From Solirubrobacterales bacterium 70-9 (lineage in GTDB: Bacteria > Pseudomonadota > Alphaproteobacteria > Acetobacterales > Acetobacteraceae): DNA of 34,029 nt. The stretch covers positions 1 to 34,029 of the forward strand of contig CAJCJG010000150.1 of NCBI GenBank assembly GCA_903970625.1, in the 5' to 3' direction. Below are positions 2,946-34,029 of this stretch, piece after piece. The first letter of the stretch is position 1, and each line of letters begins with the position of its first letter. A program made the translations under genes and the position numbers. A model generated the notes under the pieces. It worked only from the letters and a program-made list of their open reading frames with translations, searched no databases and was not told the DNA's origin.

Positions 2946-4088
2946 TCAATCCTTCCCCACCACCGACCGCGCAATGATCAGCCGCATGATTTCGTTGGTG
3001 CCTTCCAGAATCTGATGCACCCGCAAATCGCGGACGATTTTCTCGATGCCGTAGTCGGCCAGATAGCCGTAGCCGCCATGAAGTTGGAGCGCGCCATTGG
3101 CGACCTCGAAGCTCGCATCGGTGACGAATCGCTTGGCCATGGCGCAGAGCTTGGTTGCATCGGCGGCTTTCGCTTCCAGCGCGGACGCTGCCCGCCAGAG
3201 GAACGTGCGCGCCACCTCCAGTTGCGTCGTATAGTCCGCGAGCCGGAACCGCAACGCCTGAAATTCGCTTAGTGCCGTCCCGAACGCCTTGCGCTGCCGC
3301 ATATACGCGACGGCGCGATCCAGTGCCGCCTGCGCGCCGCCCAGCGAGCACGCGGCGATGTTGACGCGCCCGCCGTCCAGCCCGCTCATCGCGATGGAAA
3401 ACCCTTTGCCTTCCGGCCCCAGCCGGTTCGCCGCCGGCACGCGCGCGCCATCGAACAGCACCGCCCGCGTCGGCTGCGCGTTCCAGCCCATCTTTTTCTC
3501 GTTGGCGCCGAACGACAGGCCGGGCGTCCCTTTCTCGACCACGAACGCGGAAATCCCGCCCGCGCCATCGCCCCCTGTCCGCGCCATCACGACATAGAGG
3601 TCGGACGCGCCCGCGCCGGAGATGAACTGTTTTTCCCCGGTCAGCACGTATGCATCGCCATCGCGCACCGCCCGCGTGCGCAGCGCCGCCGCGTCCGACC
3701 CGACCGCCGATTCCGTCAGGCAATAGCAGGCCAATAATTCCATCGAGGCCAGCGGCGGTATCCAGCGCCGCCGTTGTTCCTCCGATCCATAAACATCCAG
3801 CATCCAGGCGCACATGTTGTGGATCGAGAGGTACGCGGCAATGGTCGGGCAGCCGCCCGCCAGCGCCTCGAAAATCACCGCCGCGTCGAGCCGCTTCAGC
3901 CCGGTGCCGCCGACATCTTCACGCGTGTAGATCGCGGCCAGCCCCAGTGCTGCGGCTTTGCGCAGGGTCTCCACCGGAAAATGCCTGGCCTGATCCCACT
4001 CCACCGCGAACGGCGCGAGTTCCTCGGCGGCGAAGGCCGCCGCCATGTCGCGGATCGCTGCCTGCTCCTCGCTCAGCTCGAAATCCAT
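2946..4088 (-). CDS. acyl-CoA dehydrogenase, isobutyryl-CoA dehydrogenase-like
   Basis: A 380-residue flavoprotein beginning MDFELSEEQ. It shows CYCLTESAVGSDAA near 121-134, RQRKAFG near 264-270, LHGGYGYLADYGIEK at 336-350 and ILEGTNEIMR at 360-369, with E362 as the likely catalytic base. The pattern resembles isobutyryl-CoA dehydrogenase (ACAD8 type) of valine breakdown, but the acyl group cannot be fixed from sequence. A GTG at 4103 would add five residues. ATG 4088 is preferred because it begins the conserved N-terminus and has AGGTGG about 11 bases upstream. It follows the RidA gene by 18 bases and probably ends the hyu operon, so it may process the acyl-CoA end product of that pathway. 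Confidence 0.87.
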   Translation of the reverse strand: MDFELSEEQAAIRDMAAAFAAEELAPFAVEWDQARHFPVETLRKAAALGLAAIYTREDVGGTGLKRLDAAVIFEALAGGCPTIAAYLSIHNMCAWMLDVYGSEEQRRRWIPPLASMELLACYCLTESAVGSDAAALRTRAVRDGDAYVLTGEKQFISGAGASDLYVVMARTGGDGAGGISAFVVEKGTPGLSFGANEKKMGWNAQPTRAVLFDGARVPAANRLGPEGKGFSIAMSGLDGGRVNIAACSLGGAQAALDRAVAYMRQRKAFGTALSEFQALRFRLADYTTQLEVARTFLWRAASALEAKAADATKLCAMAKRFVTDASFEVANGALQLHGGYGYLADYGIEKIVRDLRVHQILEGTNEIMRLIIARSVVGKD

Positions 4089-9855: not shown

Positions 9856-11175
9856 ATGTGGCCCAGTGAAAATTCCGCGTCGCGCCCGTTGTACGATCGC
9901 GCGCTGCGCGTCATGGTCGCCGGCACCACGCGGCATATCCCCTGGCAAGATCCGTTCCCGAGGTTCGCCGCCTCCTGCCGTGGCATGTACGTCACCGACG
10001 TGGACGGCGCGGACGTTCTAGACCTGGTGATGAACAACGCGGCCCTCATCCACGGCCACGCATCGCCGCCGGTGATGGAGGCGGTGCAGGCGCAACTGTG
10101 GCGCGGCACAGCCTGCACCCTGCCGTTCGAGGTCGAGGTGTCGCTGGCCGAACTGCTATGCGAGCGGGTGCCGTCGCTGGAGAAAATCCGCCTGTGCAAT
10201 TCCGGCACCGAGGCGGTGATGCTCGCCATCAAGGCCGCCCGCGCCTACACGAACCGCCCGAAGATCGTGAAGGTGGAAGGCATCTATCACGGCATGTACG
10301 ACTATGCCGAGGTCAGCCTCGACCCGAAGCCGGACAATTGGGGGAACGATCCCGGCCGCATCGGCTATTCGCGCGGCGTACCGCAAGGCGTGCTGGACGA
10401 TGTGATCATCGTGCCCTGGAACCAGCCCGAAGCCCTGCGCCGCATCCTGCGCGACGAAGCCGCGTCCGTCGCCGCGATCCTGTTGGATCCGGTTTCTGGA
10501 GGCACCGGCTTCACGCCGCCGACACCGGAATTTTTGGACGCGGTGCATGAGGCGGCGCATGAGATCGGCGCCTTGGTCATCTACGACGAAGTGCTGTGCT
10601 TTCGCCTCGGCTACCACGGTGCGCAGGGCCGCTTCGGCGACCGGCGGCCAGATTTGACGGTTCTGGCGAAAATCATCGGCGGCGGCTTCCCGGTCGGCGC
10701 CATTGGCGGCCGGTCGGACGTGATGGAAGCCGTGTTCGAACACCGGCGCGGCAAGCCGCTGCTGCCCGCCAGCGGCACCTTCACGGCCAATCCCATCTCG
10801 ATGACCGCCGGCTTGGTGACGATGCAGATGCTGGACGAAGCCAGTTACGACAAACTCGACCGCATCGGCGATACCGCGCGCGCCATCATGCGCGATGCGC
10901 TCGCGCGTGCGGGGGTGCCCGGGCAAGTCACCGGCATCGGCTCGCTGCTGGCCGTGCATCTGCATGACCGCCCGATCCACGACTACCGCTCGGCCTTTGC
11001 CTCGCCCACCGAGGCAGCATCGCTGCGCGCGCTGCAACTGGCGATGCTGAAGCGCGGCGTGCTAATGGCCGTGCGCGGCGTGGCCTATCTGCCGACGGTC
11101 ATGGCCGATGCAGATTTCGAACGTCTTGAATTGGCCGTGCGCGGCGCGCTGGCGGACATGGCGCAGCATGCCTGA
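9856..11175 (+). CDS. class III aminotransferase, glutamate-1-semialdehyde aminomutase-like
   Basis: A 439-residue PLP enzyme of the HemL-like branch. It has CNSGTEAVM (114-122), the PLP aspartate D244 in YDEVLCFRLGYHG, the lysine K272 in LAKIIGGGFPVGA and SGTFTANPIS at 306-315. True HemL makes 5-aminolevulinate, but relatives outside heme operons include beta-amino-acid transaminases. The catabolic setting and coupling to a GntR regulator favour a transaminase role here. ATG 9856 is chosen because GGGGAAAGG lies upstream at good spacing and the N-terminal alignment starts there; the frame remains open far upstream only antisense to the other aminotransferase. Its substrate is unknown. Confidence 0.87.
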   Translation: MWPSENSASRPLYDRALRVMVAGTTRHIPWQDPFPRFAASCRGMYVTDVDGADVLDLVMNNAALIHGHASPPVMEAVQAQLWRGTACTLPFEVEVSLAELLCERVPSLEKIRLCNSGTEAVMLAIKAARAYTNRPKIVKVEGIYHGMYDYAEVSLDPKPDNWGNDPGRIGYSRGVPQGVLDDVIIVPWNQPEALRRILRDEAASVAAILLDPVSGGTGFTPPTPEFLDAVHEAAHEIGALVIYDEVLCFRLGYHGAQGRFGDRRPDLTVLAKIIGGGFPVGAIGGRSDVMEAVFEHRRGKPLLPASGTFTANPISMTAGLVTMQMLDEASYDKLDRIGDTARAIMRDALARAGVPGQVTGIGSLLAVHLHDRPIHDYRSAFASPTEAASLRALQLAMLKRGVLMAVRGVAYLPTVMADADFERLELAVRGALADMAQHA

Positions 11176-31131: not shown

Positions 31132-31156
31132 CGCGACCCTGGCAAGCCCGTAGAAG
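31128..31156 (+). promoter_or_regulatory. promoter of tRNA-Ser
   Basis: TTGACG (31128-31133) and TAGAAG (31151-31156) are separated by exactly 17 bases and lie 34 bases before the tRNA. The -35 element overlaps the TGA of the TetR gene. Confidence 0.5.
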
Positions 31157-31190
31157 AAAAGGAGCAAACGTCGTGTTGGTGGCCTCGTGC

Positions 31191-31283
31191 GGAGGGGTGG
31201 CCGAGCGGCTGAAGGCGACGGTTTGCTAAACCGTTGTAGGGAGTAAATCCCTACCGTGGGTTCGAATCCCATCCCCTCCGCCA
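31191..31283 (+). tRNA. tRNA-Ser (anticodon GCU)
   Basis: A 93-base class II tRNA with the 3' CCA encoded. The acceptor stem GGAGGGG pairs with CCCCTCC. The anticodon stem ACGGT/ACCGT holds the loop TTGCTAA, with anticodon GCT at 31225-31227, which reads AGC/AGU serine codons. The long variable arm (TAGGGA...TCCCTA) and the T-loop GTTCGAATC are intact. No integrated element is seen at its 3' end; the next gene is the Fur-family regulator. Confidence 0.96.
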
Positions 31284-31371
31284 CCTATCCGCTGATCTCT
31301 GGGGCCATCGCGAACGGCACCTTGGTGCGGAGGCTCACACCGCAGCTCACGCGGCGGACGGGAGAGGGAGC

Positions 31372-31839
31372 GTGACTCACACGAAGCGGGACTCCATCGA
31401 GGACCGGCTTGAACAGGCGGCGGGGCTCTGCTTGCGCGATGGCGGCCGGCTGACCGACATCCGGCGCCAGGTCCTGGCCCTGGTCCTTCGCTCGGGGGAA
31501 CCGATCGGCGCCTATGCACTGCTCGACCGCCTGAAGGCAGACAAGGCCAACGCGACCCCCGCGACGATCTATCGCGCGCTCGAATTCCTTCAGACGCATG
31601 GTCTGATTCACAAGCTCGAACGGCTGAACGCCTTCATCGGCTGTGCCGACGTGAGCGATCATCACCACCACCATGCCGTGCAATTCCTAATCTGCCGCAC
31701 CTGCGGGTCGGTGGCCGAGATGGAGGACAGCGGCATCGCCGGCGCCGTCGAAACCGCGGCGGAACGGACGGGATTCCGGCCCGCCAGAGCCACGGTGGAA
31801 GTGGAAGGCACCTGCGCCGAGTGCGCCGCAACCGGCTGA
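31372..31839 (+). CDS. zur: Fur family zinc uptake regulator (Zur)
   Basis: A 155-residue Fur-family repressor. It has an N-terminal winged helix (TDIRRQVLALVLRS, then ATPATIYRALEFLQTHGLIHKLE), a run of five histidines at 97-101, and two structural zinc pairs: C108/C111 in CRTC and C148/C151 in CAEC. The His-rich loop followed by FLICRTCG is typical of Zur rather than iron-sensing Fur. With zinc bound it represses zinc-uptake genes; a perfect Zur box lies 54 bases after its stop, before the zinc-binding protein gene. The start is GTG 31372 behind GGAGAGG. No own promoter could be fixed in the 88 bases after the tRNA. The assignment is strong because of the Zur box. Confidence 0.9.
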   Translation: MTHTKRDSIEDRLEQAAGLCLRDGGRLTDIRRQVLALVLRSGEPIGAYALLDRLKADKANATPATIYRALEFLQTHGLIHKLERLNAFIGCADVSDHHHHHAVQFLICRTCGSVAEMEDSGIAGAVETAAERTGFRPARATVEVEGTCAECAATG

Positions 31840-31893
31840 TCGGCCACGCCGCGCGAAACCGCTGGGTCAGGGTCGGACTGGCAGTGGACTTGG

Positions 31894-31916
31894 GAAATGA
31901 TATATTATATCATTTC
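31894..31916. promoter_or_regulatory. Zur box (perfect palindrome)
   Basis: A 23-base perfect inverted repeat: half-site GAAATGATATA, a central T, and the exact complement. It matches the alphaproteobacterial Zur consensus half GAAATGTTATA except for one position in each half. It lies 27 bases upstream of the zinc-binding protein ATG and downstream of zur itself, so zinc-loaded Zur should block transcription of that gene. Confidence 0.9.
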
Positions 31917-31943
31917 ATATACCGAAACCGTTCGAGGATCGCC

Positions 31944-32822
31944 ATGAGGAAGATCGTTTGGCTTGCCGTAGCCGTTACCGCGCTCGCCGCACGGCCGCTG
32001 GGTGCGCAAACGCCTGTGCCGCTGACCATCGTGGCGGCCGAGAATTTTTACGGCGACATCGCCACGCAACTAGCCGCGCCGGACGCCAAGGTCAGCAGCG
32101 TGCTGAGCAATCCGGACGAAGACCCGCATATGTTCGAAGCCAGCCCGTCTGTCGCGCGCGCCCTCTCGGCCGCCCGCATCGTCATCTACAACGGCGCCGA
32201 CTACGATCCTTGGATGGACAAATTGCTGGGCGCGGCGCGGTCCGCCAATCGGCAGGCGATCGTCGTTGCCGATCTCGTTCATAAGCAGGCCGGCGACAAT
32301 CCGCATCTTTGGTACGATACCGCCACCGTGGCCGCCGCCGCGAAAGCCCTCTCGGCCGCCCTCGTCGCGGCCGACCCGGCGCGCATGGCGCTCTACGATC
32401 GGCGTTTAGGGGTTTTTCTTGCCTCCTTGCAGCCGATCGACGCCAAAGTCGCGGCCATGCGGGCGACATATTATGGCATGAGCGTGACGGCGACCGAGCC
32501 GGTGTTCGGTTACATGGCGGCGGCCTTGGGGCTGACCATGCGCAACGAGCGGTTTCAGCTTGCCGTGATGAACGACACCGAACCGGCAGCGTCCGACATC
32601 GTCGCGTTCGAGAGCGACCTCCGGCATCGTCGCGTTCGAGTTATGTTGTATAGCAGTCAGGCAACCGACAATTCGGCCAAACGACTGTTGCGCATCGCCG
32701 AACAAGCGAATGTGCCCGTCGTCGGCATCACCGAAACCGAGCCGCCCGGCCAGACCTATCAGGCCTGGATGACCGGCGAACTCGACGCGTTGGCCGCCGC
32801 TCTGGCCAAGGCGGGATCCTGA
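31944..32822 (+). CDS. znuA: zinc ABC transporter substrate-binding protein (ZnuA-like)
   Basis: A 292-residue cluster A-I metal-binding protein with a signal peptide (cleavage probably after LGA or GAQ, about residue 21). Likely zinc ligands are H62 in DEDPHMFE and H121 in DNPHLWYD. At the usual third histidine there is E185 in TATEPVFGY, and an acidic ligand is expected near TETEPPG. The His-rich loop of classical ZnuA is absent, which suggests an AztC/ZnuA variant. It captures zinc in the periplasm. ATG 31944 has GAGGA at six bases. The promoter carries the Zur box. No permease or ATPase gene follows in the window, so its importer partners must be elsewhere or missing. Confidence 0.88.
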   Translation: MRKIVWLAVAVTALAARPLGAQTPVPLTIVAAENFYGDIATQLAAPDAKVSSVLSNPDEDPHMFEASPSVARALSAARIVIYNGADYDPWMDKLLGAARSANRQAIVVADLVHKQAGDNPHLWYDTATVAAAAKALSAALVAADPARMALYDRRLGVFLASLQPIDAKVAAMRATYYGMSVTATEPVFGYMAAALGLTMRNERFQLAVMNDTEPAASDIVAFESDLRHRRVRVMLYSSQATDNSAKRLLRIAEQANVPVVGITETEPPGQTYQAWMTGELDALAAALAKAGS

Positions 32823-32825
32823 CCG

Positions 32826-32987
32826 TCACCGGTCCTTGGTCGCGGATGGCGCCGTTCTATCCGCCCCGGCGACGTGCTGAAGGTCCGCATCCTCGATGTC
32901 GCCCCGCGCCCGAGCCGCAGGATGCGGTTGTTCCTGATGACTGTTCACCAGCTCAGCGAGGGCGAGGTGATCTGCGGAGGCGGCTGA
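32826..32987 (+). pseudogene. remnant of a MaoC-like (hotdog) dehydratase C-terminus
   Basis: An open frame with no start codon or ribosome site follows the znuA stop. Its residues GWRRSIRPGDVLKVRIL, then APRPSRRMRL and later SEGEVIC, resemble the C-terminal part of MaoC/R-hydratase-like enzymes, where RPGD, the RPS turn and GEV are conserved. The fragment ends at a TGA at 32985. It has lost its catalytic N-terminal half, so it cannot be active. The match is by eye and moderate. Confidence 0.4.
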
Positions 32988-33015
32988 CAGCCGATGCTTC
33001 AGGCAGATCCAGGCG

Positions 33016-33057
33016 CCAGTAGCACCCGCCGCCCAACGTCGCGATTTGTTCGGTCAT
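33016..33057 (-). pseudogene. truncated start of msrA (methionine sulfoxide reductase A)
   Basis: An ATG at 33057, behind a strong GGAGGATCAC, opens with MTEQIATLGGGCYW, the N-terminus and active-site cysteine motif (GGCFW type) of MsrA. After the tryptophan the frame turns into unrelated sequence (RLDLPEASAV) and stops near 32953, without the rest of the roughly 160-200-residue enzyme. It is an inactive 5' stub, probably left by a deletion that also cut the MaoC-like fragment. The original promoter side remains, facing the oxidase-like gene. Confidence 0.55.
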
Positions 33058-33154
33058 GTGATCCTCCGTGTGGGCAGCGGTGTTGGCGCGGGACGGCGCG
33101 GAGTCCAGTGTGCCGTCTCGTCGGGAAACGCACGACCCGGCTTGGAGGGCCGCG

Positions 33155-33721
33155 ATGACGTTGAACGAAACCCTGGCAGATGCCTTTTCCCGCCTGTCGC
33201 ACGCTGCCGCCGACCGCGCCGCGCCGTTCCGCACCCTCGCCCTGGCCACGGTGGCCGGGACCGGCACGCCGGCAGTCCGCATCGTCGTCCTACGCTCGTT
33301 CGAGGCCTCTTCGCGCAGCCTGACGGTCCACACCGACGCCCGCGCCGCCAAACACGCCGAGATTTTCGCCAATCCGACGGTCGCGCTGGTGGCGTGGGAC
33401 GCCGGCCCAAGGCTTCAGATTCGGCTGCGCGGACGTGCCGTCACTCACATCGGCGATGCCGTTGCCCAAACCGACTGGGACGCGCTGCCGCCGCTGACGC
33501 GAAACCTCTATCGCCTGCGCCAGCCCTCCGGTTCGCCTCTGCCCGCCCCGTTGGCCGGCCATGACGACGTGGGCACCGAGGTGGAGGGTTTTGTCCATTT
33601 CGCCGTGATCGACATCACGTTCGACCGCCTGGAAACGCTGCATTTGGCCGACGAAGGCCATATCCGTGCCCGCTTCGACTTTACGGACGGCAATATGTCG
33701 GCGTCGTGGCTCATGCCGTAG
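33155..33721 (+). CDS. pyridoxamine 5'-phosphate oxidase family protein
   Basis: A 188-residue flavin-binding split-barrel protein. LNETLADAFSRLSHAAADRAAPF and the strand ALATVAGTGTPAVRIVVLRSF resemble the N-terminal flavin pocket; HTDARAAKHAEIFANPTVALVAWD and the C-terminal DEGHIRARFDF fit the Alr4036-like branch. Such proteins bind FMN, but many are not true PdxH because key PLP residues differ; the function may be a small-molecule reductase or oxidase. GGAGGG lies five bases before ATG 33155, and the 29 codons upstream look non-coding. The stop codon abuts the repeat at 33718. Confidence 0.82.
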   Translation: MTLNETLADAFSRLSHAAADRAAPFRTLALATVAGTGTPAVRIVVLRSFEASSRSLTVHTDARAAKHAEIFANPTVALVAWDAGPRLQIRLRGRAVTHIGDAVAQTDWDALPPLTRNLYRLRQPSGSPLPAPLAGHDDVGTEVEGFVHFAVIDITFDRLETLHLADEGHIRARFDFTDGNMSASWLMP

Positions 33722-33750
33722 GGCGGAATGCCCAGGAGCATTACACCCTT
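33718..33750. repeat. degenerate copy of the 14794 palindromic repeat
   Basis: The sequence begins GTAGGGCGGAATGC, then CCAGGA, then GCATTACACCCTT, corresponding base for base to the perfect hairpin at 14794-14827 with a few changes in the stem. It lies between the 3' ends of two convergent genes and overlaps the stop of the upstream gene by up to three bases. Confidence 0.65.
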
Positions 33751-33763
33751 CGAAGTCCAATAC

Positions 33764-34029
33764 TTACCGCCCCTCCACCGCTTCCCGCATCAACTCCAGT
33801 TCCAGCCACCGCTCCTCCAACTCCGCCAATTCTTTCTCTGCGCGCGCCAAAGCGTCCGTCGCTGCCGCAAATTTCTTCGGATCGGCTGTGTACAGCTTTG
33901 GATCGCCCAGAACTCGCTGCGTCTTGGCGATCTCCGCCTGCAAAACCTCCATCCGCGCCGGCAGCGTCGCCAGGGCGTGCTTATCCTTGAACGACAGCTT
34001 CTTGCCGGCCGAAGCCGGCGCCGGCTCCG
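33764..34029 (-). CDS. ABC-F family ATPase (Uup-like), C-terminal part
   Basis: Only the last 88 residues or so are present; the gene continues past the right edge. The visible part, KKLSFKDKHALATLPARME followed by a charged coiled coil (AEKELAELEERWLELELM), matches the linker and C-terminal coiled coil of Uup-type ABC-F proteins, with the ADPKKF turn between helices. These proteins carry two ATPase domains (outside the window) and act on the ribosome; Uup also affects DNA recombination intermediates. The gene is convergent with the oxidase-like gene. Confidence 0.75.
   Translation of the reverse strand, partial: EPAPASAGKKLSFKDKHALATLPARMEVLQAEIAKTQRVLGDPKLYTADPKKFAAATDALARAEKELAELEERWLELELMREAVEGR

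Follow-up and report, generated by a model that had tools for sequence, protein, structure and literature searches.

A probable zinc importer encoded at two loci with different closest relatives in a draft bacterial genome

In zinc ABC importers the pairing of binding protein and permease has been reported to be highly specific (PMC7731109). In the classification given there, the zinc-specific Groups I and II have three-histidine sites and Group II also carries a long His-rich loop; Group III has sites of 2His/1Asp/1Glu or 3His/1Asp and no flexible loop, and includes the zinc binder AztC. A described system of close likeness to the one reported here is the zur-znuACB locus of Burkholderia cenocepacia H111, which, together with its relatives in the Burkholderiaceae and Acetobacteraceae, has the same kinds of proteins, the same order and a Zur site, and whose genes rise on zinc depletion (PMC10563805). 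The H111 locus is contiguous, whereas the genes described here lie on two contigs and form two halves with different closest relatives. The probable zinc importer of this genome is coded at two loci, zur-znuA on contig C150 and an ATPase and a permease on contig C207.

The DNA analysed, hereafter the window, is a stretch of 34,029 nucleotides which makes up the whole of contig C150 and belongs to the draft assembly G000 (4.63 Mb in 378 contigs, completeness 93.6%, estimated contamination 0.8%). At the right end of the contig a tRNA-Ser gene, zur, a 23-base palindrome and a ZnuA-type gene follow one another (Table 1). A sequence-only reading of the window had described a zur gene followed by a perfect 23-base palindrome and a ZnuA-like gene, and the open reading frames, Pfam matches and a motif scan confirm this description. 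It had also noted that neither znuB nor znuC follows; in agreement, tblastn of positions 32700-34029 returned only chance-level matches (E 6 or worse) and no remnant of an ATPase or permease between znuA and the contig end. What had been called gene debris behind znuA is a truncated msrA start in minus-strand orientation, and a PNPOx-family gene comes after it. The genes of a ZnuABC-type system are thus not found in one cluster, with znuA on C150 and the ATPase and permease genes on C207. Only one ZnuA, one ABC-3 permease and one Zur are present in the assembly, and together they form a mutually complementary set.

Table 1 Features at the right end of contig C150 (positions in the window).
Feature	Position	Strand	Basis or remark
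tRNA-Ser (GCT), directly upstream of zur	31191..31283	+	ARAGORN; BLASTN
zur, FUR-family zinc uptake regulator, 155 aa	31372..31839	+	ORF, profile matches, tree
Sigma-70-like promoter (predicted), -10 element inside palindrome	31878..31906	+	consensus match only
Perfect 23-base palindrome, predicted Zur operator of znuA	31894..31916		motif scans; similar sites at relatives
znuA-type gene, cluster A-I metal-binding protein, 292 aa	31944..32822	+	Pfam, alignment, model
Truncated msrA, first 17 codons	33007..33057	-	71% to G001 over 17 residues
PNPOx-family gene, neighbour	33155..33721	+	ORF 33068-33721; start 33155 chosen by eye
ABC-F-like ATPase, C-terminal 87 aa, cut by contig end	33764..34027	-	named by eye

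The zur product matches the Pfam FUR family (PF01475) with an E value of 6.5e-14. Among seven NCBIfam models the Zur equivalog, an enterobacterial model, gave the best score, 106.5 bits, which is under its cut-off of 167 as judged without a Zur of the same family as control. Two CXXC pairs are the motif of Zur regulators, and both CRTC and CAEC are present in the translation, so that the protein combines a FUR domain and two CXXC pairs with adjoining zinc uptake genes. No second zur was found in the assembly, the only other match being a FUR-family protein at 29% identity.

The palindrome, GAAATGATATATTATATCATTTC, consists of two 11-base arms around one central base. It is far beyond chance: no match within 3 mismatches occurred in 100 shuffles of the window, and the degenerate motif, with as many as 3 mismatches allowed, was found at one place only in the 4.63 Mb assembly, the window's own box, compared with 0 in the reversed control. 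A promoter consensus scan gave 2 overlapping candidates where 0.3 were expected, and the overlap of the palindrome with the -10 element of this promoter-like sequence is the arrangement expected for a repressor site. The Zur operators described for Caulobacter crescentus lie over the -10 region or between the -10 and -35 elements (PMC4176598). The same kind of site is present upstream of znuA at 12 loci of relatives, and a position weight matrix (PWM) was built from these 12 sites just upstream of znuA, omitting the sites at L169, L170 and L173, which are distant from the znuA start. Boxes matching at least 15 of the 23 bases were not seen at L068, L014, L164, L171, L172, L174, L176, L177 and L189, nor at L010 and L161, both of which belong to G019, although the G019 lineage groups with the window's Zur. 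A listing of the regulon by a 15-base core with 2 mismatches was abandoned: it matched 14 places in the assembly and 14 in the reversed control, so that this search cannot list the regulon. The strongest further PWM sites, on contigs C299 and C140, were rejected as the 3' ends of two members of a repeated gene. These members (L095 1004-1513 on C299 and L089 1503-2054 on C140) belong to a small gene family with products ending in HNVTI, in which an AT-rich near-palindrome at the stop codon mimics a Zur box.

The znuA-type gene is intact. Its product matches Pfam ZnuA (PF01297) with an E value of 4e-47 over profile positions 1-263 of 263, and its predicted structure (pLDDT 87.8) is matched by solved structures of ZnuA, AztC and PsaA, which are tied at Z 24 to 27; both the domain and the fold are those of a cluster A-I binding protein. 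AztC is thus among its nearest solved structures, and the NCBIfam AztC equivalog scores 73 bits on it with a cut-off of 350. The likely ligands H62, H121, E185 and E264 are identical in 93 of the 93 aligned rows, which include the window and count at least three genomes twice, and no His-rich stretch was found in the window's ZnuA. Judged by these residues, the protein falls outside Group II as strictly defined, having neither a three-histidine site nor a His-rich loop. With two His and two Glu at the likely positions, the fourth of which aligns ambiguously with AztC, the family appears to lean to Group III, and yet it is tied to Zur. Zur-linked binding proteins of this family carry a manganese-like H, H, E, E pattern under a zinc regulator. 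This pattern resembles the Group III manganese and iron proteins more than a three-histidine ZnuA as these are described in PMC7731109, and the orphan ZnuA could on this ground work with a different permease or carry manganese or iron instead of zinc, leaving the C207 pair to be served by something else. We regard this as improbable, since no second ABC-3 permease or ZnuA-type protein is present in the assembly, the same ligands are kept throughout the alignment of a family in which an ATPase and a permease follow znuA in 74 of 80 related loci, and the zinc-depletion response reported for zur-znuACB of B. cenocepacia (PMC10563805) concerns what, from the gene order, we infer to be the same family. 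Zinc is therefore the likely metal of the window's ZnuA.

The sequence-only reading had suggested that the missing permease and ATPase might be encoded elsewhere or have been lost from the locus, and proposed a genome search for the pump genes and for further Zur boxes. Both were located on contig C207, where the sole ABC-3 permease match in the assembly has an ATPase gene ahead of it (permease PF00950, E 5.9e-47; ATPase PF00005, E 3.9e-28) and a weaker Zur-box-like site precedes the pair. The suggestion of partners elsewhere is thereby supported; what that reading had not foreseen is the loss of znuA from C207 and the divergent affinities of the two halves. The order on C207 is the start of a YgjP-like gene, cut by the contig end, the box-like site, the ATPase and the permease; znuA is absent. 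The same-genus genome G001 has the order YgjP-like gene, box, znuA, ATPase, permease. C207 and G001 align over 80 bases at the YgjP-like start (76%) and over 458 alignment columns in the ATPase (79%), and between these alignments C207 has 147 bases versus 1016 in G001, that is, about 870 bp less. No remnant of znuA was found on C207. We infer from this comparison that a native znuA was probably lost from between the box and the ATPase.

The site on C207 lies just ahead of the ATPase start and shares 17 of 23 bases with the window's box. A PWM scan of 283,641 sampled bases placed two separate sites above it, the window's box and the rejected site on C299. Its score of 24.7 exceeds the maxima of 20 mononucleotide shuffles, which averaged 15.1 and went no higher than 22.3; because some of the sampled loci had been chosen by the motif search itself, this score is support and not proof. 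In G001 a box of this kind likewise separates the YgjP-like gene from the operon, and this shared position is the better argument. By eye, the ATPase start lies about 7 bases after the box with no obvious ribosome site, which makes the expression level of the ATPase uncertain. Around positions 10713-10743 of the C207 locus (L158) agreement of the ATPase frame with G001 begins one codon past the ATG of G001, and that ATG itself is absent from C207; upstream in-frame starts adjoin or fall inside the Zur-box-like site.

The gene order of relatives, another comparison which had been proposed for this locus, was also read. It covered every same-family genome whose znuA match reached an E value of 6.2e-30 or lower, and znuA, ATPase and permease are contiguous in 18 of these 18; weaker matches elsewhere fell outside this set, and G020, whose permease and ATPase stand at the edge of a contig and in which znuA was not found, was not counted. 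In G011, G019 and L011, zur lies directly ahead of znuA in a full zur-znuA-ATPase-permease order. Of the 80 related loci, which share three genomes with the 18, two (L008 and L062) end at a contig edge behind znuA, and four (L035, L065, L072 and L082, from three Caballeronia and one Candidatus Burkholderia) have no ATPase or permease behind it, as seen in 2.1 kb up to the contig edge for L035 and in 8 kb for the other three. Each of these four genomes has one relative of the C207 permease beside an ATPase gene and another znuA, partly seen at the locus edge. The orphan znuA of the Caballeronia type was accordingly rejected as a parallel to the window, being an extra copy beside a complete set elsewhere.

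The permease is 90% and the ATPase 81% identical to G001, compared with 67% for ZnuA and 57% for Zur, and the best matches are L011 for ZnuA (74%) and G011 and G019 for Zur (68%). In maximum-likelihood trees the permease groups with G001 at 97/98, with a bootstrap that had not settled, and the ATPase does so at 100/98, while ZnuA groups with L011, G011 and G019 (98/98) and Zur with G011 and G019 (98/92), L011 being added at 94/88. AU tests, in which the clades were chosen after the identities had been seen and the p-values are consequently somewhat optimistic, rejected one clade with G001 for Zur (p 0.0014), did not reject it for ZnuA (p 0.077, and 0.119 without long rows) and gave p 5.6e-6 for Zur and ZnuA combined. 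A clade with G011, G019 and L011 gave p 0.0024 for the permease, 0.005 for the ATPase and 8.2e-5 for the two combined. For the combined tests, as for the second ZnuA value, the long or incomplete rows G002, G023, G030, G020, L005 and L007 had been dropped beforehand, and rows lacking either gene of a pair fell out, leaving 16 in the test of Zur with ZnuA. The ATPase and permease thus group with G001, and Zur, and with it ZnuA, with the G011/G019/L011 lineage. The zur-znuA pair appears not to be the genus's own copy, whereas the ATPase and permease appear to be. A native znuA which was moved next to zur by rearrangement and then evolved fast would be compatible with the AU values for ZnuA, but we hold this to be very improbable, as the adjoining Zur rejects the G001 clade, the pair does so more strongly, and zur is directly ahead of znuA in G011, G019 and L011 too.

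The conflicting ancestry of the halves depends on a sound draft assembly, and the flanks of zur-znuA bear on this. Similarity to the tRNA loci of G001, G011 and G019 stops at about the 3' end of tRNA-Ser (BLASTN). The tRNA itself is 98.9% identical to that of G019, 95.7% to G011 and 91.4% to G001, with differences mostly in the variable arm, and the 61-base flank upstream of it matches only G001 (75%) among 8 genomes compared. On the other side, the minus-strand frame after znuA opens with MTEQIATLGGGCYW, which is the msrA start, and runs on into unrelated sequence. In G001 msrA, PNPOx and ABC-F follow one another as they do in the window, with matching orientations, the G001 msrA being readable for about 145 residues before its contig ends. 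The junction in the window's truncated msrA interrupts this order, so that zur-znuA borders on a break in the gene arrangement native to the genus. The identities of PNPOx (55%) and the ABC-F piece (67%) to G001 are not high. Within 31150-33200, zur-znuA is not flanked by a direct repeat of the tRNA-Ser 3' end, which leaves integration at the tRNA site without support, and 0 of 39 plasmid records with a relative reach 60% identity. The assembly has two other full-length msrA genes. Beside an msrA gene on contig C59 lies an SDR gene (L238 1370-2254) with 74% identity to an L011 SDR gene (3102-3953) which sits immediately upstream of the L011 zur.

In composition, C150 correlates at 0.933 with a 176 kb sample of its own assembly, and with smaller samples at 0.861 for G001, 0.862 for G011, 0.809 for G019 and 0.608 for L011. 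Pieces of C150 of 12 kb range from 0.807 to 0.880 and the assembly's own contigs from 0.678 to 0.887, a range overlapped by single foreign loci (up to 0.862, a G011 locus), so that composition is compatible but weak evidence. An SNF2 gene on C150 has no match in G001, itself 87% complete, at E 1e-100. A baseline identity from sampled contigs of the assembly and G001 loci was tried and dropped, as too little is shared. C150, or its right part, could accordingly come from a relative of G011, G019 or L011 through an error of binning or assembly, with the true zur and znuA unassembled. The draft and incomplete state of the assembly, the affinities of Zur, ZnuA and the tRNA variable arm, the SNF2 gene and a composition compatible with such an error all speak for this explanation, and we consider it unlikely, though one to be taken seriously. 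Against it are the low estimated contamination, the tRNA flank shared with G001 alone and the G001 order of truncated msrA, PNPOx and ABC-F. Furthermore, a mis-binned C150 leaves unexplained why znuA is absent inside contig C207, and znuA in G011, G019 and L011 is followed by an ATPase and a permease which C150 does not have. The strongest argument that C150 belongs to this genome is complementarity, as each contig lacks what the other has.

The computed gene content and order, the absence of znuA on C207 and the conflicting trees are best accommodated by a natural hybrid importer, in which a zur-znuA pair of foreign origin, or from a paralogue since lost, replaced the native pair and the native pump was kept; we think this probably correct. 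Transfer may well have been the route, as opposed to differential loss of old paralogues. In the latter case an ancestor would have carried two complete loci, each with a zur gene; this lineage would have retained zur-znuA from one and ATPase-permease from the other, and G001 the remaining genes. This differs in route only, yielding the same conflicting trees with no transfer. G003 has two Zur-like genes (50% and 46% identity), and in the Caballeronia-type cases an extra znuA coexists with a complete locus. We nevertheless judge differential loss unlikely, given that none of the 18 same-family loci comes from a genome with two full znuA genes of this type, the second znuA of G013 being a 69-residue piece at a contig edge.

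For the hybrid importer, we propose the following mechanism. Zinc-loaded Zur would bind the palindrome covering the znuA -10 element and keep znuA off; under zinc shortage znuA and the C207 operon would be released, and the binding protein would go to the periplasm. A single Zur would control both places, the ATPase-permease operon on C207 more weakly, and the window's ZnuA would dock on the C207 permease and hand the metal, presumably zinc, over to it. In automatic annotation each locus of such an importer may pass for a defective system, even though all the parts are there. If the swap is true, its comparison with the many unswapped relatives could make the docking surface and the contacts between Zur and its operator readable from the residues kept and changed.

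Among the titles and abstract beginnings listed in a literature search, none described such a split importer with conflicting trees. The split itself is a variant of known arrangements with orphan binding proteins, and the conflicting ancestry is the more interesting part. In Listeria, as described in PMC7731109, the ZurAM pump likewise consists of an ATPase and a permease with no linked binding protein, and the orphan lmo1671 possibly serves it; the binding proteins AdcA and AdcAII of streptococci provide another likeness, in that a binding protein is encoded away from its pump. The window's ZnuA, encoded at a location separate from the C207 pair, may serve that pair as an orphan zinc binding protein of the lmo1671 or AdcAII kind. 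According to the same source, however, Listeria is Gram-positive and has a second complete system, ZinABC, whereas the orphan here is the only binding protein found; and AdcAII adds to AdcA, whereas the orphan ZnuA here would stand in for the operon's own znuA. Paracoccus denitrificans possesses two Zur-controlled zinc importers, ZnuABC and AztABCD, the latter with the Group III zinc protein AztC, and engineered hybrids of ZnuA and AztC, which are 25% identical, are reported to fail (PMC7731109). The incoming ZnuA here is, by comparison, 67% identical to that of G001, the stand-in for the lost native protein. That a foreign Zur and ZnuA replaced the own pair of the only high-affinity zinc importer, whose native znuA was lost from its place between box and ATPase while pump and box were kept, with the Zur reading the native box and the ZnuA feeding the native permease, is in our estimation a real possibility that falls somewhat short of an even chance, and it would be a natural counterpart of the Paracoccus hybrids.
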